Assembly: GCA_030529205.1 (NCBI GenBank)
Contig: JAUMXJ010000010.1
Location: 1-15,547 of the forward strand
Source: Bacillota bacterium
GTDB lineage: Bacteria > Bacillota > Clostridia > Peptostreptococcales > Acidaminobacteraceae
DNA: 15,547 nt
Direction of reading: 5' to 3'
This document shows positions 1-14,126 of this stretch, one piece after another. The notes below the pieces were generated by a model. It was not told the DNA's origin and did no database searches. It saw only the letters and a program-made list of their open reading frames with translations. The position numbers were made by a program, and so were the translations under genes. The stretch's first letter is position 1. Each line of letters opens with the position of its first letter.

Positions 1-996
1 TTACTGTTCGTCATCTCCGCTTTCAATGGTGTAGATATCGTTCGGATTGGTGCTGTAAAACATGCGCATCATGGCATCTTTTTTGCTCAAATCCGGAAAC
101 CAATACGAGAGACCGTCCATCATATCGTGATAGCCGGGAAGCAGGTAGGAGCTTACGCGATCCATATTGACCTTTTTGAGCAGGGTTGCGTAGCGCATCA
201 CTTCTTCAAGCGGCATGTCCGTTGCGACGTATTCGCCCTTGATGATGGTAGTAATCAGTGCAAACAGGTCGCTGCTGTTGAGCGCTTTTTCGATCATGGC
301 ATTGATGAAGTCTCTTTGCCTCTGGGTGCGCACCACATCTCCCTCTACGATACTGCCGTCGTTATTTTGTCTGAAGCGCAGAAATTTCAGTGTTCCCAAG
401 CCGTCCAAATGGTTCATTCCCGCCGGAATGTCGATGTGGAGCTCCGGAACCGCATCGACATCATCATACTTCATATGATACGGAACATAGACGTCGTAAC
501 CGCCCAGGGTATCCACAATGGATATGACCGAGGAGAAGTCGACCTTGATATAGTAATCGATCGGGACATTCAGAAGATTCGACACCTCATTCTTCATCCC
601 GATGACGCCGCCGTCCTCCTGATAACCGTAGACGGAATTAATCTTTCTCTGCCAAGCTTCGGGATATCCCCGCACCTCATGATAGGTGTCTCTGGGAATG
701 GAGAGAATATTCAGTCGATTCGTGCCGTAATTGAAACTGAACAGGACAATGGTATCCGCCAAACCGTCATTCAGTCCGAAGGCGAGGACATTGAGCACCT
801 TGTCCTTCTCTTCCGGCTTTTTGGGATTGTCGGGATCGTGATTCGTCGTATTTTCAATCAAATCTCCCGTATGAATCTGCGGAATGTTCGGAGTCTTGAC
901 ATCGGAGAACACTCCGACTCCGTAAAAAATACCCATAATTCCGATCATGGATACGACAAACGCAATCAAAAATGTATACAGATACTTTTTATTCAT
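1..996 (-). CDS. LytR-CpsA-Psr (LCP) family cell-wall polymer ligase
   Basis: 331 aa. LCP proteins are membrane-anchored enzymes that move lipid-linked wall teichoic acids or capsular glycans onto peptidoglycan outside the cell. A single N-terminal membrane segment (about residues 5-30) is followed by a Pro/Lys/Glu-rich stalk and the LCP domain (about 68-245). Family signatures seen are DTIVLFSF (D81), LNILSIPRDTY (R102, D103) and the arginine cluster GDVVRTQRQRDF (219-230). The ATG at 996 is preferred over an in-frame ATG 36 bp upstream because GGGGAGG lies 5-6 nt before it and the membrane helix follows at once. The start overlaps the lspA stop by 8 bp, so translation is probably coupled. 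The stop codon is at the very edge of the window (1-3). The polymer substrate cannot be told from sequence. Confidence 0.9.
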   Translation of the reverse strand: MNKKYLYTFLIAFVVSMIGIMGIFYGVGVFSDVKTPNIPQIHTGDLIENTTNHDPDNPKKPEEKDKVLNVLAFGLNDGLADTIVLFSFNYGTNRLNILSIPRDTYHEVRGYPEAWQRKINSVYGYQEDGGVIGMKNEVSNLLNVPIDYYIKVDFSSVISIVDTLGGYDVYVPYHMKYDDVDAVPELHIDIPAGMNHLDGLGTLKFLRFRQNNDGSIVEGDVVRTQRQRDFINAMIEKALNSSDLFALITTIIKGEYVATDMPLEEVMRYATLLKKVNMDRVSSYLLPGYHDMMDGLSYWFPDLSKKDAMMRMFYSTNPNDIYTIESGDDEQ

Positions 997-1570
997 TCTT
1001 CCTCCCCTCGACGAACAGTAAGTATATCGCACTCAAAACCGATCCGCAAGTCACACAGATATCGGCCACATTAAAAACGGGGAACTGAATGAAGAGCACT
1101 TCGATAAAATCCACCACATGACCGTCTCTGAATGCCCGGTCGATCAGATTTCCCGCTCCTCCGGCAAAAATCAGGGCAATCCCGAGTGCGAGAAGAATGC
1201 TGTTCCTGCCTCTGGTTTTAAAATAAAAATACGCCAACGCTCCGCAGCCGATGACCGGTGCGATCAGAAGAAGGAGGCGCTGCCCTCCGAGCATTCCCCA
1301 TGCCGCCCCGTTGTTCTCCAGAAAACGAAATCCCAGAATGTTATCCAAGAGGACAATCGGCGCTCTTCCCTGCAGATGCTGCAGTGCCAAGTACTTGGTC
1401 CACTGATCGAGTGCAATCAGCAGCAGGGAACAGACAATCCCGAACCGAAACCACAGCCCGGACAGCATTTTTTTAGTCGAAGGCACTCGTGACGGCTCCT
1501 GCAAAGGCTCATGCGACTGCCCTTGAGACGGCTCTTGCGACGACGCTTTGGCGAAGATCTTATTCCACAT
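989..1570 (-). CDS. lspA: Lipoprotein signal peptidase (signal peptidase II)
   Basis: 193 aa integral membrane aspartyl protease that removes signal peptides from prolipoproteins after lipidation. Motifs: DQWTK (55-59) at the end of the first helix, LENNGAAWG (84-92), GGAGNLIDR with catalytic Asp D144, and FNVAD with catalytic Asp D170. Four hydrophobic segments are visible. The start at 1570 has GAGGA about 10 nt upstream; an in-frame ATG at 1606 would lie deep inside pyrE and has no evident ribosome binding site. The gene overlaps the 3' end of pyrE by 11 bp and the LCP gene by 8 bp. Unusual: residues 11-32, before the first helix, form an extension of degenerate Ser-Gln-Glu-Pro tetrapeptides encoded by a 12-bp tandem repeat. 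Its substrates include the two lipoproteins encoded at 7955-9446. Confidence 0.95.
   Translation of the reverse strand: MWNKIFAKASSQEPSQGQSHEPLQEPSRVPSTKKMLSGLWFRFGIVCSLLLIALDQWTKYLALQHLQGRAPIVLLDNILGFRFLENNGAAWGMLGGQRLLLLIAPVIGCGALAYFYFKTRGRNSILLALGIALIFAGGAGNLIDRAFRDGHVVDFIEVLFIQFPVFNVADICVTCGSVLSAIYLLFVEGRKNE
1479..1538 (-). repeat. 12-bp imperfect tandem repeat inside lspA
   Basis: Five consecutive 12-bp units on the plus strand (1479, 1491, 1503, 1515 and 1527), for example gacggctcctgc at 1491 and gacggctcttgc at 1527. On the minus strand they encode degenerate tetrapeptides (EPSQ, GQSH, EPLQ, EPSR, VPST) in the hydrophilic N-terminal extension of LspA. The unit is a multiple of three, so copy-number change would keep the frame. 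Confidence 0.75.
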
Positions 1571-2189
1571 CGGTAAACATCCTCGGATTTTTGCTCCAGC
1601 TTGCAAGAAGTTCTTTCACCTCTCCCTTGACAAGGCCTGTTTCTTCAGCGAATTCCAGCACCTCGCCGTAATTGGTCAATGACGCGACGGGTACCTGAAT
1701 ATCAGAAAACACGTTGTCAACCGCAGGAAACCCGTAACTGAAAATCGCCAGACAGCCGAGCACATCCGCACCCTCCGCCTTCAGCGCCTTCACGGCGGCG
1801 ACGGAGCTTTTCCCGGTGGAGAGCAGGTCCTCGATCAGGACGACCTTGGAGCCTTCCGGCATATAGCCTTCAATGAGCTTCTGCGTTCCGTGGTCTTTGG
1901 AAGAAGAACGCACATACACCATCGGCAAACCCAAAATCTGTGCCACCCAAGCCGCATGCGGAATCCCTGCCGTGGCGGTGCCCGCAATCACCTGCGCATC
2001 CGGATACTTCGCGCGGATGGCGTCCGCAAAACCGTGCGCGACCATGTCGCGAATCTCCGGATACGAAATAATCAGCCTGTTGTCGCAATAGATCGGAGAC
2101 TTGATTCCCGAAACCCAGGTAAACAGGTTATCAGGGGTTGTCAACTTCACCGCCCGAATTTCCACCAATTTTTTTGCTATTTCTTTCAT
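1560..2189 (-). CDS. pyrE: Orotate phosphoribosyltransferase
   Basis: 209 aa cytosolic enzyme of de novo pyrimidine synthesis, converting orotate and PRPP to orotidine 5'-phosphate and pyrophosphate. The PRPP-binding motif is VVLIEDLLSTGKS (116-128). The flexible-loop residues SSKDHG (96-101) with K98 and the orotate-side segment FTWVSGIKSPIYCDNR (23-38) match the PyrE family. Length is usual for the family. The ATG at 2189 is preceded by AAGGTGAGG with 4-5 nt spacing. No other pyr gene is present in this window; instead pyrE is followed by lspA with an 11-bp overlap, suggesting co-transcription with envelope genes. The 87 bp upstream (2190-2276) show no convincing promoter or terminator, so read-through from the upstream DUF4015 gene is possible. 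Confidence 0.95.
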   Translation of the reverse strand: MKEIAKKLVEIRAVKLTTPDNLFTWVSGIKSPIYCDNRLIISYPEIRDMVAHGFADAIRAKYPDAQVIAGTATAGIPHAAWVAQILGLPMVYVRSSSKDHGTQKLIEGYMPEGSKVVLIEDLLSTGKSSVAAVKALKAEGADVLGCLAIFSYGFPAVDNVFSDIQVPVASLTNYGEVLEFAEETGLVKGEVKELLASWSKNPRMFTDVE

Positions 2190-2276
2190 CCAACCTCACC
2201 TTACACAGAATATCATTTTCCACAAAATAAATGGATTGTCATAATTCAATTCTAATATTCATCTGATTCAGCCGCC

Positions 2277-3758
2277 TCACTTCAACACGTCGATTTCGTA
2301 GTCATTGCTCGGATTCCACAGAAGGTATTCCTCGATGCCCTTCTCCTTGAGCGCCCGAATCTGCGCCTTGATTTCCTCCCTGCCGTATTCGATGTACTGA
2401 AGCCCCTGGTAGTAAATGTACGACGCGGTAAAATGCTGGATCCACGGCCTGAGAATCGCCGGATTCGTCACATTGCCGTTTCGGTCGATACAGTCCTGCG
2501 TTGCAGCCAGCACGGTTTCATACGGCTGCGTGTCCGGGTACTGAATCCCGAAATTCCACTCTCCGTAATGGCTCGGATAAATCATCGGGCACATATAGTC
2601 CACCACATTCGTCATGGCCTCCCAGTGCTGACCGATCTGCACATCATCCACCGCCGTCGCCGCCCAGCCGAAAATATCCGCCGCCAGGTACACCTTCTTC
2701 GCGTGCAGCCTCTCTCCCGCATAGCGCAGGAAACTCTGAATCGCATATGTCTTCGAATGCGTTCCCAAATCCTTGTAATAGAACTCCTTCGTCAGCGGCA
2801 CGGTCGGGAAACGCACATAGTCATACTGAATCTCATTGAATCCCAAATCCGCCGCCTCTTCGCCAAGTCCGATATTGTACTCCCACAGATTCCTGTCCAT
2901 CGGCGATGTCCACAAGAGCACCCCGTCCTCGGTAAACGGCGTATCCGTTCCCGCATAGGTGATGATTCCGTCTCGATTCTGTTCGGAATAAATCGGCGAT
3001 TTAAACGTCACAATACGCGCAATCAGGTAGATGCCCTTATCCTTCGCCTTCTTGATGATGGGGGCAAGTTGCGCCTTCTTCAACCTGGCATGCCTGTTGG
3101 CTTCGGGATTGTATTTGGCTGCAGCGTCGGACTCGAAGAGAAGCTCTTCGCTGTCATCTTTTATATCGATTACCAGGCTGTTGAGTTCAGTGTTTTCTAC
3201 CACATCCAGAATGTGATCGAACCCGCTTCCCGTCGTCGTCGAAATGGAGAGATACAGTGCGCGCGCCTTGATTCTCGGGTTTTCCGGAAAATCGGGAATG
3301 GTCCTGATATAGTCGTACTCGCAATCCTCTTCGGGAGCCGCGATGAATTCCTTGAGACTTTTCTTTACAGACGCCTCGGGGATAAATCCGAATGTCTCCG
3401 CATCGTCATAGCTGCGCTTTACTTCATAATGACCGTCTTCGAGACCGAGAGAATAAAACGACATCTTCCTGTCGGTGATAAAAATCTCCTTGCTGAGCTC
3501 CCTGTCATTGAATACACGAATTCCCGCATCCACATAGACCGTATTTTCCCGGATATGTTTTTCGAGCGCTTCGCGCTCCGCCGCTCTCCTCGCCTCGAGA
3601 TCCTCCGTCGTCTCGGTGGTGACCGTCGTCGTGGCGGTCGAGGTCGTCGGCTGTTCAAATATCGGGCCGCCTTCCAGAACAACGGACAGGACATATGCCA
3701 ACAGCACCATAATCGATGCCAACAATACGAGTATTACAGCCATTCTCCCTTTTTTCAT
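2277..3758 (-). CDS. Membrane-anchored putative glycoside hydrolase (DUF4015)
   Basis: 493 aa. A Lys/Arg start and one hydrophobic helix (about 6-28) suggest a signal anchor or uncleaved signal peptide, followed by a Thr-rich linker (39-52) and a charged, possibly helical stretch (53-70). From about 165 to the end it resembles the DUF4015 putative glycosyl hydrolase (TIM-barrel-like) family: KARALYLSIST (164-174), LVIDIKDD (195-202), GFNEIQYDYVRFP (307-319), LAADIFGW (358-365) and MCPMIYPSHY (389-398). The acidic residues in IDIKDD and EIQYDYVRFP are candidate active-site residues, but the chemistry of the family is not settled to my knowledge. Probable role: extracytoplasmic glycan or cell-wall processing, which fits lspA and an LCP ligase downstream. 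Start ATG has AGAGGTGAG 3-4 nt upstream. The region between 70 and 165 has no recognised fold. Confidence 0.8.
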   Translation of the reverse strand: MKKGRMAVILVLLASIMVLLAYVLSVVLEGGPIFEQPTTSTATTTVTTETTEDLEARRAAEREALEKHIRENTVYVDAGIRVFNDRELSKEIFITDRKMSFYSLGLEDGHYEVKRSYDDAETFGFIPEASVKKSLKEFIAAPEEDCEYDYIRTIPDFPENPRIKARALYLSISTTTGSGFDHILDVVENTELNSLVIDIKDDSEELLFESDAAAKYNPEANRHARLKKAQLAPIIKKAKDKGIYLIARIVTFKSPIYSEQNRDGIITYAGTDTPFTEDGVLLWTSPMDRNLWEYNIGLGEEAADLGFNEIQYDYVRFPTVPLTKEFYYKDLGTHSKTYAIQSFLRYAGERLHAKKVYLAADIFGWAATAVDDVQIGQHWEAMTNVVDYMCPMIYPSHYGEWNFGIQYPDTQPYETVLAATQDCIDRNGNVTNPAILRPWIQHFTASYIYYQGLQYIEYGREEIKAQIRALKEKGIEEYLLWNPSNDYEIDVLK

Positions 3759-3778
3759 ACACTCACCTCTACTTACCT

Positions 3779-3832
3779 CGGGAAAATCACCCCGGGAAAA
3801 TCACCGCGTGAAAATCGCCGCGGGGAAAAATT
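3779..3832 (+). repeat. 14-bp tandem repeat, nearly four units
   Basis: Units cgggaaaatcaccc (3779-3792), cgggaaaatcaccg (3793-3806), cgtgaaaatcgccg (3807-3820) and a partial cggggaaaaatt (3821-3832). Units differ by one to three bases from the first. The array fills most of the gap between the ROK gene stop (3831-3833) and the DUF4015 gene start (3758). The first unit is a small inverted repeat, GGG-AAAATCA-CCC, so a chain of weak hairpins is possible in either transcript. No T-run follows on the minus strand, so it does not look like an ordinary intrinsic terminator. Confidence 0.85.
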
Positions 3833-4781
3833 AAATACAGCCGATGTCGGCGTGCAGAGCAAACTGATATGCACCGTAGACGGCACTGATATTCCCGAGT
3901 TCCGAGATTAAAACCTTGACATTGCTGTTGTATCTCTGACTCCCGATCTGCGTCGCATAACGATTGATAAACTCCAGATACTTCGGACCGAAATAGTCAA
4001 ACAGCTCCCCGCCGAAAATCACCGCATCCGGGCGAACCAGATTCGTCAGATTGCTGTATGTCAGTGCGATAAACTTGAACGCGCGATTGACCGCCTCGAT
4101 GGCGATCTCGTCCCCTCTCTGGGTCGCGTTATATATCGCCTTCATCATCATCGGCCTGTTTCTCGACGCCGACTCTCCTACGATGGAGGTCCTTCCTCCT
4201 CTGCACTGCTGCTTGATATATTTTTGAATGGCGTCCTTGGATGCGTATGCCTCCAGACAGCCGTAGTTTCCGCATTTACACGCTGCACCGTCCGGAACCA
4301 ATGTGATATGCCCCAGCTCCGACGCACCGTACTTCCCCATGTAAAGCTCCCCGTTGATAATCAGCGCTCCTCCGACATGATCTCCGGCAAAAATGCCGAT
4401 TACATTCTTATCCAAAGTGTCGAAATACTTGTACGCCCCGTAGACGGAACAGTTGACATTGCTGTTGATCACCACGCCGCAACCGAATCTCTTTTTGATT
4501 TTTTCAGCGAGGGGCGTGTTTTCGAATGCATTGCCCACCGTGACCTCGACCGCGATGCCGGAAAAATCGTATTCATCCACTCCGACCCCCACCGTCTGAA
4601 GCTCAAAAATCTCGGACTCCACGAGTTTGGCAATCATCCCGACAATATCGTCCTCCACAGCTTCCAGGGGCACGCCCGGCCTTCTCTCGAAATCCGTCAT
4701 GTTCAGCTTTTTCCCGTACACATCGAACAATATCGCTACAACCTTCGTATCCTCAACACTCACGCCGACATAAACTCTCAT
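3831..4781 (-). CDS. ROK-family protein with degenerate kinase motifs
   Basis: 316 aa, usual length for a single-domain ROK sugar kinase and without an N-terminal helix-turn-helix. The sugar/zinc half is intact: ELGH (155-158) and CKCGNYGC (C168, C170, C175, with H158) form the ROK zinc motif. The nucleotide half is not. The phosphate-1 loop, usually DxGGTK, reads SVEDTK (8-13). The position of the catalytic Asp in the NDxN motif is Asn (SNVN, 107-110, N108). The second phosphate loop, usually GTGxGGG, reads GDHVGGA (133-139). This pattern suggests a protein that binds a sugar but does not phosphorylate it, as in ROK repressors, yet the DNA-binding domain is missing. GGAGG lies 5 nt before the ATG and fixes the start. 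It follows the phosphofructokinase gene by 28 bp and is probably co-transcribed with it. Substrate unknown. Confidence 0.85.
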   Translation of the reverse strand: MRVYVGVSVEDTKVVAILFDVYGKKLNMTDFERRPGVPLEAVEDDIVGMIAKLVESEIFELQTVGVGVDEYDFSGIAVEVTVGNAFENTPLAEKIKKRFGCGVVINSNVNCSVYGAYKYFDTLDKNVIGIFAGDHVGGALIINGELYMGKYGASELGHITLVPDGAACKCGNYGCLEAYASKDAIQKYIKQQCRGGRTSIVGESASRNRPMMMKAIYNATQRGDEIAIEAVNRAFKFIALTYSNLTNLVRPDAVIFGGELFDYFGPKYLEFINRYATQIGSQRYNSNVKVLISELGNISAVYGAYQFALHADIGCI

Positions 4782-4809
4782 GAATCCTCCAAATGACCTT
4801 AAGCGCCTA

Positions 4810-6114
4810 CTAAATCAACTTCAACTCTACCTTTCTCGCCTTTAATGAGGTTCCTTTTCTGAAATCCGTTCCGATCAGCGGATATGCATAATCGATAAAC
4901 GCGGGAGTGACATCATTGCCCGCTTCATTGATAAATTCGTCCGCCATATGCTTGGTCTTTGCCGCAACTTCCTGAATGTCCACCGTCCTGAACCCGGACG
5001 CATAGCCGTTCCCGAAATCCAGTGTCGCACCGTCCCGGCAACCGGAAGCGGTACTTCCCGCTACATCGTCACCGTTTGACGAACGGCATCGACCGGCTAT
5101 TCTTTCCATGACCACGGAAAAATCTCTTCCCGATGCATCCGAGAGCGCCGCCCTGACGCCGAACTCACCGGCAAATCGTGCTTCCTTCGCATCCACGTCG
5201 GATACGACGCCCAGGAAGGATCTCTGCATGTACCCGAGCGTATCGGCTCTGACACGGCTGATTCCGAGTTTCGCCTTAATCTCCTTGGCGAGCAGATCGC
5301 CGAGCGCACCGGTTCCCGAAAGCTGGACATTCCCGTGCGCATCACGTTCCACATTCTCCTGAAGTCTCGTCACGATCGGGGTCCCCTCCGCGTCCGCGAT
5401 CCCCTCGGAGACCGCGATTACACATCTGCCGTGTAAGTCATAACACCGTTTCACATCCTTCAGGAAGGTCTCGATATCAAACACTCTCTCCGGCAGGTAG
5501 ATCAGATGCGGTCCGGAGTTCTCGTCCTCGCGTGCAAGCGCCGACGCCGCGGTGAGAAATCCCGCATGTCTTCCCATGACGACACCGATGTAGACACCGT
5601 TCAAGGAACGATTGTCAAAATCCGCTCCGGCAAACGCCGAAGCGACATAGCGCGCCGCACTGCCGAATCCGGGCGTATGGTCATTGACCACGAGGTCGTT
5701 GTCAATGGTCTTCGGAATGTGCACCGCCTTCAGCTCATAGCCGTCCGCCTGCGCTTCTTCCGACACGATGCGCACCGTATCCGACGAATCGTTTCCTCCG
5801 ATATAGAAAAAGTAGCGAATATTCAATTTTTTCATATTTTCAAACATTTTTCTGCAGTATTCTTTATCCGGCTTCACCCGCGTGGAGAGGAGTGCGCTGC
5901 CCGGCGTGCGGGATACCTCTTCCAGATGCTCACGATCCAGCCCCGACAATACGACCAGATCGCCCTTTACAATACCCTCCACACCGTGCAGAGAACCGTA
6001 GACGGTCTCAATTTCACTGTATTTAGCGGCTTCCAAAACAACACCCGCCAGAGACTGATTGATAACGGCGGTCGGTCCGCCTCCCTGTGCAACCACGAGA
6101 TTTCCTTTTAGCAT
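4810..6114 (-). CDS. pfp: Pyrophosphate-type 6-phosphofructokinase
   Basis: 434 aa. Catalyses phosphorylation of fructose 6-phosphate to fructose 1,6-bisphosphate in glycolysis. Motifs: GGGPT (11-15) at the phosphoryl-donor loop, IGGNDSSDT (105-113), PKTIDND (134-140) with catalytic Asp D138, and MGRHAG (180-185). Donor type: Asp109 replaces the Gly of ATP enzymes, and Lys135 replaces the Gly of PGTIDND; both are known markers of PPi-dependent enzymes, where the reaction is reversible. The ATG at 6114 has GGGAGGA about 4 nt upstream; the frame stays open to 6249 but lacks another good start. Residues about 341-368 are a Gly/Ser/Asp-rich insertion not expected in the family. ATP use cannot be excluded without assay. 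The gene leads the operon that includes the degenerate ROK protein. Confidence 0.88.
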   Translation of the reverse strand: MLKGNLVVAQGGGPTAVINQSLAGVVLEAAKYSEIETVYGSLHGVEGIVKGDLVVLSGLDREHLEEVSRTPGSALLSTRVKPDKEYCRKMFENMKKLNIRYFFYIGGNDSSDTVRIVSEEAQADGYELKAVHIPKTIDNDLVVNDHTPGFGSAARYVASAFAGADFDNRSLNGVYIGVVMGRHAGFLTAASALAREDENSGPHLIYLPERVFDIETFLKDVKRCYDLHGRCVIAVSEGIADAEGTPIVTRLQENVERDAHGNVQLSGTGALGDLLAKEIKAKLGISRVRADTLGYMQRSFLGVVSDVDAKEARFAGEFGVRAALSDASGRDFSVVMERIAGRCRSSNGDDVAGSTASGCRDGATLDFGNGYASGFRTVDIQEVAAKTKHMADEFINEAGNDVTPAFIDYAYPLIGTDFRKGTSLKARKVELKLI

Positions 6115-6154
6115 TTGTCCTCCCATTCTGCATTCCATGCATGAAACTGTAAGA

Positions 6155-6163
6155 ATTATAACA
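6155..6163 (-). promoter_or_regulatory. Extended -10 promoter of the phosphofructokinase gene
   Basis: On the minus strand the sequence reads TGTTATAAT: a perfect TATAAT (plus-strand 6155-6160) with TG one base upstream. A clear -35 at 17 bp is not seen, which extended -10 promoters can do without. Predicted transcription start near 6148, giving a leader of about 34 nt. Confidence 0.6.
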
Positions 6164-6257
6164 TGAATCAACTTTTCAAAAAACTTTATGCCAAAAAAAT
6201 AACATTGTTGCAAAATTTGATATTCCTCCGAAAATACTATAATTTCCAACGTTCAAG

Positions 6258-6266
6258 TGCTATAAT
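6258..6266 (+). promoter_or_regulatory. Extended -10 promoter of the iminopeptidase gene
   Basis: TGCTATAAT: perfect TATAAT at 6261-6266 preceded by TG at 6258-6259. A second TATAAT at 6238-6243 with TTGATA at 6217-6222 (15-bp spacer) could act as an upstream alternative. The start would be near 6273, about 20 nt before the ATG, with the GGAGGA ribosome binding site at 6285-6290. Confidence 0.6.
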
Positions 6267-6293
6267 GACGGTACTATCAATATTGGAGGAAGT

Positions 6294-7235
6294 ATGCTTA
6301 AGACTTTATTTCCCGAATTGGAACCGTTTCAGACACATATGATCAAGGTCGACGACCTCCACGAAATCTATGTTGAAGAGAGCGGCAAAAAAGACGGAGC
6401 CCCCGTCGTATTTGTTCATGGAGGACCGGGAAGCGGTTGCGGCAACGATTCAAGAAGATTCTTAGATCCGGATTTTTATCGCATTATCTGCATCGATCAG
6501 CGCGGATGCGGAAGATCCAAACCTTTTGTCGAACTGCGCAACAACACCATACAGGCCCTTGCGGATGATATGGAAAAAGTCAGAGAGCTCCTCGGAATCG
6601 AACGCTGGCTCGTCTACGGCGGTTCATGGGGCACCACGCTCTCCCTTTATTATGCGGAGAACCATCCGGAGCGCGTAACGGCTCTGATTTTGAGAGGAAT
6701 TTTCCTTGGAAGAGACGAAGACATCAAGTGGCTTTATCAGGGCGGCGCCGGTATGTTTTTTCCGGAGGCGTATGCCGAATTCACCTCGCTTTTGTCCGAA
6801 GACGAAAGAAAGGACAATGTTCTGAGCTACTACAAACATCTGACTTCCGAAAATCCGGAGGAGAGAAGGAAGTTCGGCAAGGCGTTCAGCGACTTTGAGA
6901 CCTCCGTCGTCGCGCTTCACCCGCGCACTCTGTCCGAAGAAATCACGGATGGCGACATCTCTCTGGCGATGATGGAATGTCACTACTTCGTCAACGCGTG
7001 TTTCATGGAGGAAAATTATCTGCTGAACCATGTCGATCGGATTCAGGACATCCCGACATTCATCGTACACGGCAGGTATGATGTGGACTGCAGACCGGAA
7101 GGGGCGCATCTTCTCGCACAGAAGCTGAAAAACTGCGAGATCGTCTATCCGATTGCCGGCCACTCGTCGTTCGAGCCGGAGATCACCCACGAATTGATCT
7201 TGGCACAGGAGCGATTTAAGCGGTACTTTCAATAG
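6294..7235 (+). CDS. pip: Proline iminopeptidase (prolyl aminopeptidase)
   Basis: 313 aa alpha/beta-hydrolase of peptidase family S33, probably cytosolic (no signal peptide). It releases N-terminal proline from peptides. Motifs in order: oxyanion-hole segment HGGPGSG (42-48), the IDQRGCGRS strand-loop (67-75), the nucleophile elbow GGSWG with Ser111, Asp263 in VHGRYDVDCRP, and His290 in AGHSSFEPE. HGGPGSG together with GGSWGTTL is characteristic of prolyl aminopeptidases. GGAGGA lies 3 nt before the ATG, slightly tight but clear. It is monocistronic or leads into the SEC-C gene; only a weak hairpin lies between. It may work with the M42 peptidase at 9516 in peptide use. Other S33 hydrolases remain possible, but the motif set is close to the textbook family. 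Confidence 0.9.
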   Translation: MLKTLFPELEPFQTHMIKVDDLHEIYVEESGKKDGAPVVFVHGGPGSGCGNDSRRFLDPDFYRIICIDQRGCGRSKPFVELRNNTIQALADDMEKVRELLGIERWLVYGGSWGTTLSLYYAENHPERVTALILRGIFLGRDEDIKWLYQGGAGMFFPEAYAEFTSLLSEDERKDNVLSYYKHLTSENPEERRKFGKAFSDFETSVVALHPRTLSEEITDGDISLAMMECHYFVNACFMEENYLLNHVDRIQDIPTFIVHGRYDVDCRPEGAHLLAQKLKNCEIVYPIAGHSSFEPEITHELILAQERFKRYFQ

Positions 7236-7273
7236 ACGACCGACAATGCACACTCGAAGAACCGGTACGCCGT

Positions 7274-7300
7274 TTGACCGATACGGTCGTTTGATACATA
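7274..7300 (+). promoter_or_regulatory. Possible promoter of the SEC-C gene
   Basis: TTGACC (7274-7279) and TACATA (7295-7300) are separated by 15 bp, shorter than the ideal 17. The elements overlap a 5-bp inverted repeat (7276-7288). Weak candidate only. Confidence 0.3.
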
Positions 7301-7334
7301 CAAGAAAAGTTTGAATAAACAACGGGGGGATAAT

Positions 7335-7853
7335 ATGACATTATTTGAACAATGGAATAAGCGCCTCTCATCGGATCGTGTGACCAAGGAAGAGTGGGAT
7401 GAGTATCTCGCAAAAGAATTGAATTTCTACAAAGACCTTCTCTCCGAATACGGCGGCGAACTCGATGAGGACGCGACACTGAAAACCAAGCGCAGCATTT
7501 CCGGGTTGATGGAAGACTACAAACTGATGAATCTCGAAGCGGTAGGATTGTTCGACGGCATCAACGAAAGTCTGGTCGAGCCGCTCACGCTCGACTCCTG
7601 CGACGAGACGAGTGAAGTGGAATTTCATGTGGACTTCAAAAAACTCTATCTCAATATGCTGAAAGTGAAAGCGACTTGGCTGAGCTCTCTTCCCGAGTGG
7701 GACAAGGTTCTGTCTCACAATGCGAGAAGAGAAATCAGAGACGAATACGTTGCAAGCATTACCGCTAAAAGCAATAAGGAAGCGGGAAGAAACGATCCCT
7801 GTCCTTGCGGAAGCGGAAAAAAGTACAAAAAGTGTTGCGGAATCGGGAAATAA
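7335..7853 (+). CDS. SEC-C zinc-motif protein of unknown function
   Basis: 172 aa. The C-terminus carries a complete SEC-C motif, [18 protein letters not shown] (151-168), with Cys156, Cys158, Cys167 and Cys168 as zinc ligands. The same motif ends SecA and many uncharacterised bacterial proteins and there binds zinc and SecB or ribosomes. The preceding 150 residues are acidic and mostly helical in character; I do not recognise a family. No signal peptide or membrane segment. The ATG at 7335 is chosen because GGGGGGA ends 4 nt before it; an ATG 24 bp upstream has no such site. It is not SecA, whose motor domains are absent. Function cannot be assigned beyond a probable zinc-dependent protein or ribosome contact. 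Confidence 0.82.
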
Positions 7854-7954
7854 CACTCTCGATTACATACTTACTGTAAAACTATTTTCACTTTTTATTC
7901 ATATTATTATGATGTAATGAAAACAGGCAAAAAATAAATTTATAAGGTGGTTTT

Positions 7955-8662
7955 ATGAAAAACATAAAGAAGATTGCAGCTTTAACGCTTATCGGAGCCA
8001 TGACATTGGTACTTGGTGCTTGTAATTCAAACTCTTCCACCAAGACGTCTACGACTACAACGACGGGTGAAACCAAGATTACATCAAGCACAACAACCGA
8101 CGGAAAAAGCAACACATCTGATACAAATTCAACAACCACAACAACCGTGGCTGCGACAACCGCTACCACATCGGGCAGTACGGAAGCAACCACTCTCGCT
8201 GTGACAACCCCGACCAGAAAGGTGGACGGCGAAAAGATTTTCTTCCGCGATTTGGATTTGATGAAAGCGGACGGAACGACGGATAAATTATCCGGCAGCG
8301 CAAAGAAATACACCGTTGTATGTTTCTGGCAAACCGAATATCCGATTTGCATCGATCAGCTGTCCGTATTGGAATCTCTTGCGGCGGATGAAGCGGAAAT
8401 CGTGAGCGTCATCATGATCAACACCGGCGAATCGAAAGAGAAATTGGAGAGTTTCGCGAAAGAGAGAAGTTCGAATCTCACATTCTATCTCGACGAAGAC
8501 GGTTCCATCGCGAAAGACAATCAGGTGACCAGACTTCCATACCTCATGTTCCTGACGGAAGATCTCGAAGTGATGGGAACAGTCGGCGGTAAAATCAACA
8601 GAAACGATTTTAACGTCATCTTCGATAAAATTGACGAATTCAGGGCAAATAGAGGAGAGTAG
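7955..8662 (+). CDS. TlpA-like thioredoxin-fold lipoprotein lacking CxxC
   Basis: 235 aa. A lipoprotein signal peptide ends in LGAC (Cys23), followed by a long Thr/Ser-rich linker (about 25-88) and a thioredoxin-fold domain of the TlpA/ResA kind (about 95-230). The active-site region FWQTEYPIC (124-132) aligns with FWATWCHFC of the next gene. The first Cys of CxxC is replaced by Tyr129 and the Trp before it by Glu128, leaving Cys132 alone. The cis-Pro is present (P195 in TRLPYLMF). An extra Cys123 sits on the preceding strand. A dithiol exchange role is therefore unlikely; a monothiol, binding or structural role is possible. AAGGTGG lies 4 nt before the ATG. It is a tandem paralogue of the gene at 8820, sharing the NTGESKE motif and the C-terminal EFR-x-x-RG ending. 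Surface-anchored on the outer face of the membrane. Confidence 0.85.
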   Translation: MKNIKKIAALTLIGAMTLVLGACNSNSSTKTSTTTTTGETKITSSTTTDGKSNTSDTNSTTTTTVAATTATTSGSTEATTLAVTTPTRKVDGEKIFFRDLDLMKADGTTDKLSGSAKKYTVVCFWQTEYPICIDQLSVLESLAADEAEIVSVIMINTGESKEKLESFAKERSSNLTFYLDEDGSIAKDNQVTRLPYLMFLTEDLEVMGTVGGKINRNDFNVIFDKIDEFRANRGE

Positions 8663-8728
8663 GTCGAACCTTGCTCGCAGAACATCAACATCAAACATTC
8701 ACAAAAAGTAAAATAGGTCGAAATGATG

Positions 8729-8760
8729 AGTTAGCTTATTTTATAAGCTAACTTATTTAT
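8729..8760 (+). terminator. Hairpin terminator between the two lipoprotein genes
   Basis: A perfect 11-bp stem, AGTTAGCTTAT (8729-8739) and ATAAGCTAACT (8743-8753), with a TTT loop, followed by a T-rich tail TATTTATTAT. The stem is AT-rich, so termination may be partial. The surrounding gap (8663-8819) holds nothing else definite; TTGTTT at 8768 and AT-rich sequence before 8800 may hold a promoter for the next gene but no consensus pair is clear. Confidence 0.65.
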
Positions 8761-8819
8761 TATCAGCTTGTTTTATTTATATAAATCAAAATTTTTAATA
8801 GCACTACAAAGGAGAAAAA

Positions 8820-9446
8820 ATGCACAACAACATTTTAAAAAAGACCACAGCCGTAGTCCTTGCAATTGTCATGTTGCTCGGGATGGCATCGTGCCAAAAA
8901 AATGACAACCCTACTTCTTCGAACACCTCAAGTTCCGAGGCACAGAGCACAAGTCCGACCGGATCGCAAAATGCGGATGCCTCTTCTACAGATGCACAAC
9001 CGTCATCCACAAAAGAGGCTCATTATTTTGAAGACATCGAATTGAAGAATATCGACGGAACGACTGCAAAACTTTCCGAAGTTGCAAAAGAAAATACCAT
9101 TGTCGTATTCTGGGCGACCTGGTGCCATTTCTGCGTGAAGGAAATTCCGATCCTGGAAGAACTCGCGAAAAAGGAAGATGTCTCCATCGTCTTGCTGAAT
9201 ACCGGAGAGTCGAAGGAGACGGTAGAGGCGTTCAAACAATCGAGCAAAAGTCCTCTGACATTCTACTATGACGACCAATCCGTCGTTGCACAGAAATACG
9301 GAATCAGCGCATTCCCTGCCATCATGTTCCTCTCCGAGAAGCTGGAGATTATCGCATATGTCCGCGGAAAGATGGAAATGGATGAGTTTGAAAGTGCACT
9401 CACAAAAATCAAAGAATTCAGAACCGAAAGAGGAGATTTTAAATAG
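8820..9446 (+). CDS. TlpA-like thiol-disulfide oxidoreductase lipoprotein
   Basis: 208 aa. The signal peptide ends in MASC (Cys25 as lipidated residue; Met at -3 is tolerable), then a Ser/Thr-rich linker (27-65) and a thioredoxin-fold domain (about 68-205). The catalytic motif is WCHFC (101-105; Cys102 and Cys105) in FWATWCHFCVKEIP, typical of the TlpA/ResA branch, and cis-Pro166 lies in SAFPAIMF. The likely role is reduction or exchange of disulfides in extracytoplasmic proteins; the electron donor (usually a CcdA- or DsbD-type protein) is not encoded in this window. The ATG has AAAGGAG with 5-nt spacing. It is the redox-competent partner of the CxxC-less paralogue encoded just upstream; an intervening hairpin suggests separate or attenuated expression. 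Confidence 0.9.
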   Translation: MHNNILKKTTAVVLAIVMLLGMASCQKNDNPTSSNTSSSEAQSTSPTGSQNADASSTDAQPSSTKEAHYFEDIELKNIDGTTAKLSEVAKENTIVVFWATWCHFCVKEIPILEELAKKEDVSIVLLNTGESKETVEAFKQSSKSPLTFYYDDQSVVAQKYGISAFPAIMFLSEKLEIIAYVRGKMEMDEFESALTKIKEFRTERGDFK

Positions 9447-9449
9447 GCC

Positions 9450-9471
9450 ACGGCAGATAATCATCTGCCGT
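9450..9471 (+). terminator. Strong hairpin without a T-run
   Basis: Perfect 9-bp stem ACGGCAGAT (9450-9458) and ATCTGCCGT (9463-9471) with loop AATC, located just after the lipoprotein stop codon and 44 bp before the M42 gene. No T-tract follows, so it is more likely an mRNA-stabilising or attenuating structure than a full intrinsic terminator. Confidence 0.45.
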
Positions 9472-9515
9472 ACCTCAAATGAACCTCGGAATCCGGACAT
9501 GACATAGGAGGTTAT

Positions 9516-10565
9516 ATGAAAAAAAATAAGAACTCATATCGCATCGATCAGAAGTATCTTTTGAATACACTCAAAAAAATACTCGAAATTCCAAGCCCGA
9601 GCGGATATACAAAGGATGTGATGGCCGCACTGGCAGCTGAAGCGGAAAAACTTGGATACAAGCACAGCGCAAATCGCAAGGGCGGATTGCTCATTCACGT
9701 GCCGGGAAAAAGTAAAAAAACAGTCTGTGTGTCCGTGCACGCCGATACCAACGGGGCAATGGTCAGCAGCATAGAGAGCGGCGGAAACCTGCGTTTCAAA
9801 CGCGTAGGCGGACCGATTTCAGCTACTTTGGACTCCGAGTACTGCACCATCATTTCTCGTAAAAACAACAAGGAATTCCGCGGAACCATCCTGTCGGATT
9901 CCCCTTCTTCACACGTGTATCCCGATGCCGGAAGCCGAAAACGCGATACGGACAATATGTACATCCGTCTGGACGCCGATGTCTGCTCAAAGGATGATAC
10001 CCTGGCTCTCGGAATCGCTCCGGGAGACTATGTGGCAATTGATGTGAAGTTTGAACGCGCAGGCGGATTTGTAAAATCAAGGTTCCTGGACGACAAAGCG
10101 TCCGTTGCGACCGTGATGTCCGTCCTCAAGTATCTTTTCGACAACAAGCTGAAACCTCAGGACAATCTGATTATGATGTGTACCAACTTCGAAGAAGTCG
10201 GACACGGTGCGGCATACATTCCGGAAGAAATTGAGGAAATGCTTGCGGTCGACATGGGTTGTATCGGATTGGATCTGAGCTGTACGGAAAAAGATGTCTC
10301 CATCTGTGCCATGGACTCCAGCGGTCCATACGACTACGAGCTTACAAACAAGCTCATCGCTCTGGCATCCGCGCACAACATTCCTCATGCGGTGGATATT
10401 TATCCGATGTACGGATCCGACGCTTCCGCAGCGATGCGCGGCGGAAACAATATCAGAGCTGCACTCATCGGACCGGGAATTCAGGCATCGCACGGCATGG
10501 AGCGAACACATGAAACCGCGCTCTATGCAACAGCGGAGCTGATTCTGCACTATCTCGGCGTTTAA
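9516..10565 (+). CDS. M42-family metallo-aminopeptidase
   Basis: 349 aa cytosolic di-metal peptidase, family M42 (glutamyl aminopeptidase/TET/FrvX-like). Family landmarks in order: HAD (H75, D77) at the first metal site, RFLDDKAS (189-196) with the bridging Asp, NFEEVGHG (224-231) with catalytic Glu226 and ligand Glu227, VDMG (D246), GSDA (300-303) and ASHGMERTH (324-332), which supplies the last His. The usual HLDEIG after the first motif is replaced by HADTNG, marking a divergent subgroup. Length is usual. AGGAGG lies 4 nt before the ATG. It sits 69 bp after the thioredoxin-like lipoprotein gene and is followed by a strong terminator. M42 proteins have been called endoglucanases in old annotation; aminopeptidase activity is the better supported role. 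Substrate preference cannot be read from sequence. Confidence 0.88.
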   Translation: MKKNKNSYRIDQKYLLNTLKKILEIPSPSGYTKDVMAALAAEAEKLGYKHSANRKGGLLIHVPGKSKKTVCVSVHADTNGAMVSSIESGGNLRFKRVGGPISATLDSEYCTIISRKNNKEFRGTILSDSPSSHVYPDAGSRKRDTDNMYIRLDADVCSKDDTLALGIAPGDYVAIDVKFERAGGFVKSRFLDDKASVATVMSVLKYLFDNKLKPQDNLIMMCTNFEEVGHGAAYIPEEIEEMLAVDMGCIGLDLSCTEKDVSICAMDSSGPYDYELTNKLIALASAHNIPHAVDIYPMYGSDASAAMRGGNNIRAALIGPGIQASHGMERTHETALYATAELILHYLGV

Positions 10566-10650
10566 AGACGACGGAATCGCCGTAAAGAGAATTTTAGAGT
10601 TTTCTGTAATCGACAGAGTTTCCGAAAATGAAAGAATTTCTGTAATTGAA

Positions 10651-10687
10651 AAAGTCCCTTGGTTATCAAGGGACTTTCTTTATTTCG
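10651..10687. terminator. Bidirectional intrinsic terminator
   Basis: Perfect 11-bp stem AAAGTCCCTTG (10651-10661) and CAAGGGACTTT (10667-10677), loop GTTAT. On the plus strand the T-rich tail CTTTATTTC follows; on the minus strand the stem runs into TTTTTC. It ends the plus-strand M42 gene and the convergent minus-strand desulfoferrodoxin gene. Confidence 0.9.
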
Positions 10688-10716
10688 GTATTCAGTCCGC
10701 CCTTCGGCGTGCCGTC

Positions 10717-11094
10717 TTAGATATCGGCTCTCCACAAAGAATGAAGATTGCAGTACTCTCTAGCAAAAAGCGCCTTCTCATCCGTCACGAATTCCGCTTC
10801 CGGAGCACCTGTCGGATCGAGGAATCTGATCAACGAGCCGTTTTCGGTAACCAATTCAATCCACTGGATTTGGTGCGCTTCCGTCATCGGATGCAATGTG
10901 CTTCCCACTACCACTTTGTAACCGTCGGCAGTCTTCTCAACGACAGGAACATGTTTCTCAGTTGAGGAATCCGCAGTCTTTTCTTCGATGACAATCATCG
11001 GATGACCACAGCAACTCATCTCTCCCCCGCCGTTTACCATTACTTCCGCAATGTTTCCGCACTGTTCGCATTTCAGTAAACTCAGTCTCTTCAT
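10717..11094 (-). CDS. dfx: Desulfoferrodoxin (superoxide reductase)
   Basis: 125 aa, full-length two-domain form. It reduces superoxide to hydrogen peroxide in the cytosol of anaerobes without making oxygen. The N-terminal desulforedoxin-like domain has four Cys for the FeCys4 centre I (C9, C12, C28, C29). The C-terminal domain has all ligands of the catalytic FeHis4Cys centre II: H48 in EKHVP, H68 and H74 in HPMTEAHQIQWIEL, and C115 and H118 in EYCNLHSLW; Lys47 next to H48 is the conserved residue that steers superoxide. Start ATG at 11094 with AGGTGA 4 nt upstream, beginning within the TAG stop of rubredoxin 10 bp upstream. Rubredoxin is the expected direct electron donor, so the pair makes a functional unit. 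Confidence 0.96.
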   Translation of the reverse strand: MKRLSLLKCEQCGNIAEVMVNGGGEMSCCGHPMIVIEEKTADSSTEKHVPVVEKTADGYKVVVGSTLHPMTEAHQIQWIELVTENGSLIRFLDPTGAPEAEFVTDEKALFAREYCNLHSLWRADI

Positions 11095-11104
11095 ACGTCA
11101 CCTA

Positions 11105-11266
11105 CTACTCGACAGGAACGAACATGTCTTTTGTCACACCGCAAACAGGGCACATCCAATCATCCGGAATGTCTTCAAATGCCGTTCCCGGTGCAATACC
11201 GCTATCCGGGTCTCCTACTGCTGGATCGTAAATATATCCACATGCTTCACATTCATATTTTTTCAT
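11105..11266 (-). CDS. Rubredoxin
   Basis: 53 aa, usual rubredoxin length. Two CxxCG knuckles, CEACGY (C6, C9) and CPVCGV (C39, C42), bind one iron. The conserved core [14 protein letters not shown] (11-24), [11 protein letters not shown] (27-37) and the ending KDMFVPVE are textbook. Start ATG at 11266 with AAAGGAGA 4-5 nt upstream. It is a small cytosolic electron carrier; adjacency to desulfoferrodoxin (10-bp gap) indicates it feeds electrons to superoxide reductase. A TATAAT-type promoter lies directly upstream, so the pair can be transcribed apart from the kinase-chaperone genes that precede it on the same strand. Confidence 0.97.
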
Positions 11267-11300
11267 ACTGTCTCCTTTCCGCACATATTGTGCTGTCTGT

Positions 11301-11327
11301 ATTATATTACATCAAATTGCTAAACAA
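11301..11327 (-). promoter_or_regulatory. Promoter of rubredoxin-desulfoferrodoxin
   Basis: On the minus strand TTGTTT (plus 11322-11327), 15-bp spacer, then a perfect TATAAT (plus 11301-11306). The predicted start is near 11294, about 28 nt before the ATG. No intrinsic terminator is seen between the hsp20 stop (11335) and this promoter, so read-through from upstream is also possible. Confidence 0.6.
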
Positions 11328-11334
11328 GTTTTTA

Positions 11335-11706
11335 TCAAATTTTTAATTTTTGTATTTCCACTTTCAATATTCCCCTACTATAGTCCGCTCTGATGCTGTC
11401 AGGATCGATTCCTCTTATGAAAAATGAACGCTTGAACGGCCCATAGCAAATCTCATTTCTCAACAGCGTGAGTCCTGCCCTCTCCACAGCGGTTTTACTC
11501 GCGGAAATCTCGAGATAATCATCTGTATAGCTAATTTCAATGTCTGAACTGTTGCAGCCCGGAAGCTCGATGTACAGAATGTAACGCTTTTCATCATGGT
11601 ACACATCCACCGCGAAAGACTTATGCATGGTCGTGCACTTCGGAAAATTGTTGTCGTCCGTCACTTCCAAAAAAAGCTGAGCCATTACTTTTTTGTGATT
11701 TATCAA
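11335..11706 (-). CDS. Small heat shock protein (Hsp20/alpha-crystallin family)
   Basis: 123 aa ATP-independent holdase chaperone. The alpha-crystallin domain spans about 29-120: FAVDVYHDEKRYILYIELPG (31-50), DIEISYTDDYLEISAS, then YGPFKRSFFI and the signature ADYSRGILKVEI with GIL at 112-114. The N-terminal arm is short (about 28 aa) and the chain ends right after the last beta-strand, so the C-terminal tail with the I-x-I motif that joins dimers in most family members is missing. Start: a TTG at 11706 is chosen because AAGGAG (plus 11712-11717) lies 5 nt upstream, inside the last codons of the histidine kinase gene; the ATG at 11685 has no ribosome binding site. It follows the kinase stop by 2 bp, so it is probably translationally coupled to the two-component system. 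Confidence 0.85.
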   Translation of the reverse strand: MINHKKVMAQLFLEVTDDNNFPKCTTMHKSFAVDVYHDEKRYILYIELPGCNSSDIEISYTDDYLEISASKTAVERAGLTLLRNEICYGPFKRSFFIRGIDPDSIRADYSRGILKVEIQKLKI

Positions 11707-11708
11707 AA

Positions 11709-13100
11709 TTACTCCTTAAATATCTGAGCAGATACCGTAAAAATAAACACTACTCCGATATCCTCATTTGAATAAACATCGATTCTCTGGTTGTGCGCCT
11801 TCAAAATTTCTCTGACAATCGGCAAACCCAAACCGGACGAATTCTTTTCAATTCCTCTCGATGCATCCAATTTTGCAAAGCGATTCCATATTTTTACTCG
11901 GCTCTCATCGTCCAAAACCACTCCGGTATTTCCGATTCCGACGAAGTACGTGTCGCCGCGCAACTCCGTTTTCACGGACAGCGTTCCTCCGACATTGACA
12001 AACTTGGTGGCATTGTCGATCAGATTGTACACCACTCTCTGCATACCGGAAAAATCCCCGTGTGCCAAGACATTTTCACTTGAAAAATCAATTTCAAGTC
12101 TGAGCTCTTTTTCTATAATTTTTTGTTCAAATGAATCCAGGACATTTACAATCATCGACTTGAGATCGAAATCCGTCATCATGAGCGAAAGCTCCCCGGA
12201 CTCTATTTTTGCCAAATCCAGCAGGTTGTTCACCATAATCAGCAAGCGATCGCACTCGGAAACGACGACCGACAGATACTTGTCCTGCTTTTCTCTGTCG
12301 ATGGTCCCGTCCAAAATGCCTGATGAATACCCCTTGATGGTGGTCAGCGGAGTCCTGATATCGTGAGAGAAGCTGGAGACGAAGTTTTGGCGCGCTTCCT
12401 CCTGTTTCTTCAAGTCATCCCCCATCTTATTGAACGCATTGGCCAAATCAGCCAATTCAACCGCTCCCGAGGTTTTGATTTTGCTGTCGAATTCTCCGGC
12501 TGCGATTCTGGATGCCGCTCTGGTAATTTGCTCGATTTCCTCGGAAATTCTGTACGTTACTATATAAATAAAGACCAACGCCAACACGCCGGAGAACAGG
12601 AGAGACACAAAGATGATGACGGAAATACGTGCAATGGTGTCCTCAGTCTGAATCATCGGAACATCGGCAAAAATCGCGTAGCGATGTGATTTTACAACAA
12701 CCGGTGCTCCAATCACGAGCGAATGTCTCACCGGAACCCAGATTGCAAGCTTTTCTCCCCGCAAAACCCTGGGATACTCTTTTTCGAATAGGACTTCATC
12801 CGGAGTCAATTTTTCGGATACATCTTCATCGACCACAATATCTCCGTGCTCGTCGATGACCCACATGGAGACGCCCGTGTAGACTTCCAGCAAGCTCAAG
12901 TGCTCACCAAGGCTGAATGCATCTGTGGATTCGCTGTTGGCAAGTTTTTCATACGCCTTGACCCTGGTCAGTATATCTTCGCGAATCTGGTCCAGAAAGT
13001 ACCGCTCCAATGAAAAGCGCACTCCGATGACAATAATCGCAAAAGAAAACAGAAAAATCAAAAGGTAAATAAAAGCAAATTTTCGAAATACCGTCTTCAT
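11709..13100 (-). CDS. Membrane sensor histidine kinase
   Basis: 463 aa. Layout: membrane helix 1 (about 8-28), extracytoplasmic sensor region (about 30-155), helix 2 (about 157-182), HAMP linker (about 183-235), dimerisation/phosphoacceptor domain with SFSHDIRTPL (His246), N-box NLIDNATKF (359-367, N363), G1 region GIGNTG (387-392) and G2 box SSGLGLPIV (421-429). The G1 Asp is Asn391, a variant also known in other Firmicute sensors, so activity is expected to be kept. It phosphorylates the response regulator encoded 13 bp upstream. The start has only a weak ribosome binding site (CTGGG), which suggests coupling to the regulator's translation. The signal is unknown; location next to a chaperone and superoxide reductase genes hints at envelope or oxidative stress. 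Confidence 0.93.
   Translation of the reverse strand: MKTVFRKFAFIYLLIFLFSFAIIVIGVRFSLERYFLDQIREDILTRVKAYEKLANSESTDAFSLGEHLSLLEVYTGVSMWVIDEHGDIVVDEDVSEKLTPDEVLFEKEYPRVLRGEKLAIWVPVRHSLVIGAPVVVKSHRYAIFADVPMIQTEDTIARISVIIFVSLLFSGVLALVFIYIVTYRISEEIEQITRAASRIAAGEFDSKIKTSGAVELADLANAFNKMGDDLKKQEEARQNFVSSFSHDIRTPLTTIKGYSSGILDGTIDREKQDKYLSVVVSECDRLLIMVNNLLDLAKIESGELSLMMTDFDLKSMIVNVLDSFEQKIIEKELRLEIDFSSENVLAHGDFSGMQRVVYNLIDNATKFVNVGGTLSVKTELRGDTYFVGIGNTGVVLDDESRVKIWNRFAKLDASRGIEKNSSGLGLPIVREILKAHNQRIDVYSNEDIGVVFIFTVSAQIFKE
11712..11717 (-). promoter_or_regulatory. Ribosome binding site fixing the hsp20 TTG start
   Basis: AAGGAG on the minus strand, formed by the last two sense codons (Lys-Glu) of the kinase gene, 5 nt before TTG at 11706-11704. 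No comparable site precedes the ATG at 11685. Confidence 0.7.
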
Positions 13101-13113
13101 TCGTACCCAGGGG

Positions 13114-13803: not shown

Positions 13804-13900
13804 GGAGGCCTCCCGTTCATTATAAGCTATCGCCTAATCTTTATGTTTAACAGAATGTAAAATAAAATAAGAATGAAAAACATTTAATGTATCAAATACT

Positions 13901-13929
13901 ATATTAGAATACCAACGAAAAACTGTCAA
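13901..13929 (-). promoter_or_regulatory. Promoter of the two-component system operon
   Basis: Minus strand: perfect TTGACA (plus 13924-13929), 17-bp spacer, TAATAT (plus 13901-13906). The hexamer GATTGA occurs twice with a 13-bp period (plus 13926-13931 and 13939-13944), overlapping the -35, and could be part of a regulator-binding site. The predicted leader of about 90 nt has no recognised riboswitch. Confidence 0.75.
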
Positions 13930-13993
13930 TCGTTTTGCTCAATCTATTCCCGTTCGGTCACGGATAATTCATCAAAAAAAACCAAATTAAATA

Positions 13994-14022
13994 TTGACAA
14001 AACCTATATGGTCATGTAGTAT
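13994..14022 (+). promoter_or_regulatory. Promoter of the tRNA operon
   Basis: Perfect TTGACA (13994-13999), 17-bp spacer and TAGTAT (14017-14022). The start would fall near 14029, a few bases before tRNA-Leu at 14035. It diverges from the two-component promoter, about 65 bp away. Confidence 0.8.
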
Positions 14023-14034
14023 ATGCAAGTACAG

Positions 14035-14121
14035 GCCGTGGTGGCGGAATTGGTAGACGCACAGGACTTAAAATCCTGCGGTGGTGACACCGTACCGGTT
14101 CGACTCCGGTCCTCGGCACCA
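14035..14121 (+). tRNA. tRNA-Leu (anticodon UAA)
   Basis: 87 nt class II tRNA with encoded CCA. Anticodon stem CAGGA/TCCTG with loop CTTAAAA gives anticodon TAA. The long variable arm has stem GGTG/CACC and loop GTGA. T-arm ACCGG-TTCGACT-CCGGT. The acceptor stem GCCGTGG/CCTCGGC pairs at six of seven positions; position 5-68 is a U-U mismatch. Discriminator A73, as usual for Leu. Confidence 0.96.
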
Positions 14122-14126
14122 GATAT

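Follow-up and report, generated by a model that had tools for sequence, protein, structure and literature searches.

Here we report that a gene in a 15,547-nucleotide stretch of DNA from a Bacillota bacterium (assembly GCA_030529205.1, contig JAUMXJ010000010.1, positions 1 to 15,547; the whole stretch is hereafter the window) encodes a ROK-family protein, P0001, in which the residues used for phosphoryl transfer by ROK sugar kinases are replaced, and that these losses are shared by a clade of 12 protein clusters. The gene (3831..4781, minus strand; 316 amino acids, ATG start) lies 28 bp downstream of a gene for a pyrophosphate (PPi)-type 6-phosphofructokinase (PFK), P0121 (434 amino acids; 4810..6114, minus strand). 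The explanation that we favor, though tentatively, is that P0001 is a ROK pseudokinase acting by protein contact, with the PFK as its most probable partner.

P0001 matches the Pfam ROK family (PF00480) over residues 4-308 with 155 bits, against a curated cut-off of 22.9, and its predicted structure has the ROK fold. A ribosome-binding-site-like sequence, GGAGGA, is read upstream of the ATG at 4785..4790 on the minus strand. The motif ELGH occupies residues 155-158 (4308..4319, minus strand), followed by the zinc motif CKCGNYGCLE at residues 168-177 (4251..4280, minus strand). The proteins were compared in alignment A4, which holds 118 proteins, namely 12 clade members and 106 others (the best 120 listed minus P0084 and P0120). 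In this alignment, the predicted zinc ligands H158, C168, C170, and C175 are present in 12/12 clade members.

By contrast with ROK sugar kinases, P0001 has neither the metal-Asp DxGG(T/S) loop nor the Asp of the ND motif nor the GTG phosphate-2 loop. The metal and phosphate-1 loop DxGGTK is replaced by SVEDTK (residues 8-13; 4743..4760), the ND motif, which supplies the sugar Asn and the catalytic base, by SN (residues 107-108; 4458..4463; the region around N108 reads N-S-N-V-N), the phosphate-2 loop GTGxGGG/A by GDHVGGA (residues 133-139; 4365..4385), and the third glycine loop GGG(V/I) by GGEL (residues 257-260; 4002..4013), all on the minus strand. D8 is found in 0/12 clade members compared with 104/104 other A4 proteins (two of the 106 have a gap at this position). 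At position 108, 10 clade members carry N and 2 carry K, compared with D in 106/106 others, and both Asp residues are missing in 12/12 clade members. T134 is likewise present in 0/12 clade members and 105/106 others, and position 259 carries E in 11/12 of the clade and Gly in 104/106 others. In a second comparison set, 25 catalytic proteins chosen as the closest among those aligned, D8, D108, T134, and G259 are kept in 25/25. A further 67 non-clade proteins (P0013-P0015 and P0241-P0304) all keep D108; 60 of these have D8, D108, and T134 together, 5 have a gap at position 8, and 2 are without Thr134. Because all 12 clade members share them, the losses do not reflect chance or sequencing error.

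A first-pass annotation of this DNA had quoted SVEDTK, Asn108, GDHVGGA, ELGH, and CKCGNYGC (residues 168-175) with the correct letters. The survey of homologues that it proposed extends the losses to 12/12 clade members and finds association with a PFK, judged by equal contig sizes, for 6 of the 11 other clusters. Its reading of GDHVGGA as an altered loop stands for the change of TG to DH only, not for the final Ala, since catalytic relatives read GTGVGGA.

What these replacements would mean for activity can be judged by comparison to the ROK sugar kinase PsNagK. The published study proposes D6 as metal ligand, D105 as base, and T10 and T132 as phosphate-binding residues of PsNagK (PMC10031466). 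There, D6N, D6A, and D105N had a kcat below detection (<0.01 per s compared with 202), and T10V and T132V were lower by about 16-fold and 11-fold, respectively (PMC10031466). A motif-based mapping of PsNagK onto P0001 pairs D6 with S8, T10 with T12, N104 with S107, D105 with N108, T132 with D134, E154 with E155, and H157 with H158. By analogy with the inactive PsNagK Asp mutants, the P0001 clade is probably without kinase activity, a conclusion that we regard as well supported and that the first-pass annotation had reached for P0001. Given that the metal Asp, the base, the phosphate loops, and the sugar-side loop described below are all changed, sugar kinase activity of P0001 is very unlikely. 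A residual kinase could still take its Asp from elsewhere or use a different acceptor or donor, and the new acidic residues 10, 11, and 134 of P0001 do lie at or beside the lost ones. However, the clade has D, E, N, or R at position 134 and varies at position 11, and the only new acid that is conserved, at position 10, stands in place of a Gly of the phosphate loop in proteins whose sugar loop is altered as well. We give such an activity very little credence.

The sugar side of the putative active site is also changed. In the loop formed by residues 69-84 (4530..4577, minus strand), which overlaps the lowest-confidence part of the structural model, the PG...PN pattern is replaced. P69 is found in 0/12, G76 in 3/12, P82 in 0/12, and N83 in 1/12 clade members, compared with 25/25, 20/25, 23/25, and 25/25 closest catalytic proteins, respectively; G70 is altered in P0001, too. 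The Asn of the ND motif, Ser107 in P0001, is present in 3/12 clade members and in 25/25 of the closest catalytic proteins. E155, the sugar Glu of ELGH, is kept in 9/12, H158 in 12/12, and E177, the Glu after the zinc motif, in 11/12 clade members. P0008 and P0009 have lost the ELGH Glu and have, in addition, an 8-residue deletion in the sugar-side loop. The intact zinc and sugar half that had been described for P0001 thus holds for the zinc ligands, which are invariant, and for ELGH and Glu177, but not for P69, G70, P82, N83, and Ser107. These observations bear on the possibility of a noncatalytic sugar or nucleotide sensor, which would use ELGH together with Glu177 to bind a hexose and would signal by domain closure. 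The conservation of E155, H158, and E177 is in line with such a sensor, which could be combined with the explanation that we favor, but the clade-wide change of the sugar-side loop and of the ND Asn, and the losses in P0008 and P0009, are not. In PsNagK, the sugar-contacting side chains are given as S78, N104, D105, E154, H157, and D187, and both N104D and E154Q strongly raised the KM (PMC10031466). The sugar-sensing role in the first-pass annotation is weakened accordingly, and we consider it improbable.

The clade shows signs of constraint. Its proteins are full-length, with 308-316 amino acids, and the six nearest to P0001 are all 316 amino acids long at 68-82% identity. Seven residues, Q62, C111, A205, R207, L260, D312, and I313, do not vary within the clade and occur in at most 2/25 of the closest catalytic proteins. 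G102 and E259, to which the same limit of 2/25 applies, are found in 11/12 of the clade, as are G314 and I316 of the tail. These newly conserved residues argue for constraint and not for decay. The long stem branch and the number of active-site changes that it carries might suggest a functionless, decaying gene, but 12 clusters of full-length proteins with conserved new residues, including the six close relatives of equal length, make this the least credible of all readings.

Two further sets of residues, taken at first as candidates for clade-specific ones, were rejected as inherited: Q186, I189, Q192, and R197 are present in 19-21/25 catalytic proteins, and K13 corresponds to Lys in 25/25. 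Their inheritance matters for another possibility, a new enzyme in which the emptied ATP pocket has been rebuilt for a different reaction, for example via the acidic residue 10. Residue 10 is E or D in 12/12 clade members and Gly in 25/25 of the closest catalytic proteins, and the near-invariant E259 fits this idea as well. The basic residue 13, however, is inherited, as are Q186, I189, Q192, and R197, which most of the catalytic proteins share, and residues 12, 134, and 135, the expected lining of such a site, differ among clade members. A new enzyme is in our view a doubtful explanation, slightly more so than a sensor.

P0001 begins at the ROK domain itself and lacks the N-terminal helix-turn-helix (HTH) of ROK repressors; no HTH family matched it in the Pfam scan. 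No split-off HTH gene lies beside the ROK gene, which is flanked by the PFK gene and a gene for a DUF4015 protein. The absence of an HTH makes a repressor role unlikely. For comparison, we surveyed 118 distinct zinc-motif ROK open reading frames from loci L004-L121 (none from L032, more than one from some loci); the loci were picked by similarity and are not a census of the family, and the frames run from stop to stop, such that extensions may include untranslated residues. Twenty-seven of the 118 are without D8 or D108, three of them fragments without an N terminus. The remaining 24/24, all outside the clade, bear N-terminal extensions that are 83-105 residues long, and 10/10 extension-bearing frames that were scanned match an HTH family at E <= 0.01 (L074 below curated cut-offs). 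The ND Asp is kept in 19 of the 24, and both Asp residues are lost in only three (L044, L076, and L079). It is well supported, as far as sequence comparison goes, that the P0001 clade does not bind DNA, as the first-pass annotation had proposed.

In a tree of 46 chosen ROK proteins, P0001 and 11 homologous clusters form one clade, with a support of 100/100 and a stem length of 0.92, that lies within the catalytic ROK proteins of Fusibacteraceae. All of the Fusibacteraceae-family ROK proteins examined keep all motifs (17/17 rows, 13 of them distinct). Two protein searches gave the same 12 clusters followed by a gap in score, from 241 to 179 bits in one and from 448 to 266 bits in the other, a profile search of a protein database covering the best 120 of 8000 scored candidates. 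A scan of genome contigs with the clade alignment returned, among the matches listed, only 24-35% relatives, and no close relatives were matched in viral contigs. At E <= 1e-85, the genome of the window was the sole match among 393 genomes of its order and 391 of its class, and in 41 genomes of its family the other ten matches at E <= 1e-70 scored 240-283 bits and were of the catalytic type; the order, class, and family sets overlap and cover about half of the species. Judged from sequence comparisons, the motifs were probably lost one time, at the root of a single lineage of Fusibacteraceae. The genome of the window itself has 1.30 Mb, is 63% complete, and contains the window as contig 85. 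It encodes a second ROK-like protein (contig 221, approximately 592-1572), whose reading frame includes a long N-terminal stretch. We rejected this protein as a counterpart of P0001, since it is a different protein in which LGGS and ND are kept and which shows no zinc motif.

The adjacent PFK, P0121, scores 452.8 bits against NCBIfam NF010675, the diphosphate-type subfamily (cut-off 273). The motifs GGND, PKT(I/V)DND, and MGRHAG are kept in 22/22 aligned PFKs, so that P0121 looks active. A review cautions that the phosphate donor is not proven by a P(G/K)TIDXD motif on its own (PMC12203962); based on its family, P0121 would use PPi. Near its C-terminal part, at residues ~340-370, P0121 has an insertion of about 30 residues, of which P0122 and P0124 have variable forms among the 22 aligned.

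The linkage of ROK and PFK genes appears to extend beyond the window. Clusters from separate ROK and PFK searches were paired when their longest contigs had identical sizes, using 119 of the 120 listed PFKs (all but the one of the window itself) and 103 of the 108 listed non-clade ROK proteins (five have no contig size). Six of the 11 other clade clusters match the contig size of a listed PFK cluster (13322, 14472, 17660, 46674, 14596, and 23948), compared with one of the 103 other ROK clusters (Fisher p 1.2e-6); the latter match is on a short contig of 2269 bases. The divergence matrices of the seven ROK-PFK pairs, window included, are correlated with r = 0.89, a value reached by 10 of 5040 relabelings. 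A PFK tree built from 30 of the 120 listed proteins places every one of the seven linked PFKs in a single supported group of 14 rows and none among the other 16. These results bear out the earlier claim that P0001 is encoded with a PPi-type PFK. The linked members include P0012, which is basal in the clade, and the linkage is therefore likely older than the divergence of the clade.

Outside the clade, this arrangement was not found. A ROK gene was seen at 0/20 PFK loci of family relatives, with the side downstream of PFK visible in 18 (it is almost unseen in L161 and L168) and four loci spanning only 5.9-8.0 kb as a result of contig ends. In 13/13 genomes of relatives, the best catalytic ROK gene is on a different contig from the PFK gene. 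The genome with the PFK most similar to P0121, G013, has the order lspA, pyrE, DUF4015, PFK, SEC-C, thioredoxin, M42, with another gene in the slot of the ROK gene. No ROK remnant was detected in this syntenic slot at E <= 1e-3, and no ROK protein was matched anywhere in G013, a genome that is 70% complete. The slot between DUF4015 and PFK in G013 contains a gene for a membrane-like protein of ~220 amino acids with no Pfam match (L152, 5064-5762, minus strand). The genome of the window and G013 have one PFK-family gene each and two Fusibacter-family genomes have two, a contrast that is weak because the genome of the window and G013 are both incomplete.

Several points weigh against the PFK as partner, which is our leading guess. 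The case for it rests on linkage and co-inheritance, from which we infer contact and its direction. Adjacency is read directly in the window, and linkage elsewhere is deduced from equal contig sizes; five of the 11 other clade clusters have no such match among the best 120 of 8000 scored PFKs. Congruent divergence is also expected from plain vertical inheritance within one lineage, and operon neighbors often do not interact. Fixed differences of the linked PFKs are few, S41, G72, and D165 in 7/7 among them, and none is obviously at an interface. Moreover, Q186, I189, Q192, and R197 of P0001 are uninformative about a new function because catalytic relatives share them.

A ROK pseudokinase might instead act on a target other than PFK, which could be a transporter, a different enzyme, or a regulator, with its operon position tying only its expression to glycolysis. 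A precedent exists in the ROK repressor Mlc, which was solved in complex with EIIB, a protein of the phosphotransferase system (PTS). On the other hand, a generic role of this kind would not need a PFK linkage that reaches across the clade as deep as the basal P0012, and PTS EIIC was not found in the genome of the window at its 63% completeness. We regard a target other than PFK as unlikely, although it is the most serious of the alternatives.

For a pseudokinase with PFK as its partner, the following course of events can be proposed. An ancestral glucokinase-like ROK protein would have become linked to the gene for a PPi-type PFK in one Fusibacteraceae lineage and would have lost the metal Asp, the catalytic base, the ATP-phosphate loops, and the sugar-side loop once. 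The zinc-stabilized ROK fold would have been retained and new conserved residues gained, including the C-terminal D-I-G-x-I tail. The pseudokinase is probably made together with the PFK by co-transcription, and it would bind the PFK and alter its activity, assembly, or position. The kept zinc-stabilized fold combined with new conserved residues fits action by contact, the conserved neighboring gene makes the PFK the first suspect as partner, and the binding of Mlc to EIIB (3bp8) indicates that the ROK fold is able to work through protein contact. More speculatively, this bacterial PPi-PFK may have acquired a dedicated noncatalytic regulator derived from a sugar kinase; by binding the enzyme, the HTH-less ROK pseudokinase would set its flux or direction in lineages relying on a single reversible PFK.

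Of the other features in the window, the DUF4015 gene, encoding a putative glycosyl hydrolase, is the next gene downstream of the ROK gene (2277..3758, minus strand) and is syntenic in G013, where there is no ROK gene. Further downstream are genes for a pyrE-like phosphoribosyltransferase, lspA, and a LytR-type gene. In a scan of window positions 2200-6400 for promoters and terminators, counts were no higher than in shuffled sequence. On the plus strand, two tandem genes encode thioredoxin/AhpC-like, lipoprotein-type proteins (7955-8662 and 8820-9446). The second has a WCHFC (CxxC) site, and the first reads EYPIC at the apparently equivalent place, with the first Cys missing. Three clustered tRNA genes, for Leu (taa), Met (cat), and Gln (ttg), are present at 14035-14315 on the plus strand.

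Compared with known ROK sugar kinases, such as PsNagK, the Streptomyces griseus glucokinase (3vgk), and the Enterococcus glucokinase (2qm1), the P0001 clade is changed at the metal Asp, the catalytic Asp, the phosphate loops, and the sugar-side loop. Its closest relatives in the tree, catalytic Fusibacteraceae ROK proteins such as those of Fusibacter bizertensis (L033), keep DxGG(T/S)K, ND, and GTGxGG and are encoded on contigs other than that of the PFK. Like the ROK repressors Mlc, NagC, XylR, and Lmo0178, the clade consists of non-kinase ROK proteins with a zinc motif, and Mlc, too, works through a protein partner. Unlike the clade, these repressors carry an N-terminal HTH, and the other motif-lacking ROK proteins with an extension mostly keep the ND Asp that the clade has lost. 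ROK proteins have been described as sugar kinases or transcriptional regulators, for instance in the abstract of an earlier report (PMC4856308). A conserved clade of HTH-less ROK pseudokinases tied to a glycolytic gene would be a third outcome beside these two. The PFK review calls all bacterial PPi-PFKs characterized so far non-allosteric (PMC12203962), and a dedicated protein partner would therefore be new; in the openly licensed literature, seen in extracts, nothing was found on ROK pseudoenzymes or on a partnership of ROK proteins with PFK. If true, a protein partner would suggest how flux through the near-equilibrium PPi-PFK step is controlled, and the two-gene ROK-PFK cassette is small and testable in Escherichia coli. 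Other kinase folds have been reused for regulation, as in fungal sensors related to sugar kinases, namely Gal3 and inactive hexokinase-like proteins, which belong to different kinase families and organisms. Plant PPi-PFK, composed of catalytic and regulatory subunits, likewise has a noncatalytic partner, but its regulatory subunit is itself a PFK homologue, whereas the candidate partner described here is a ROK protein.
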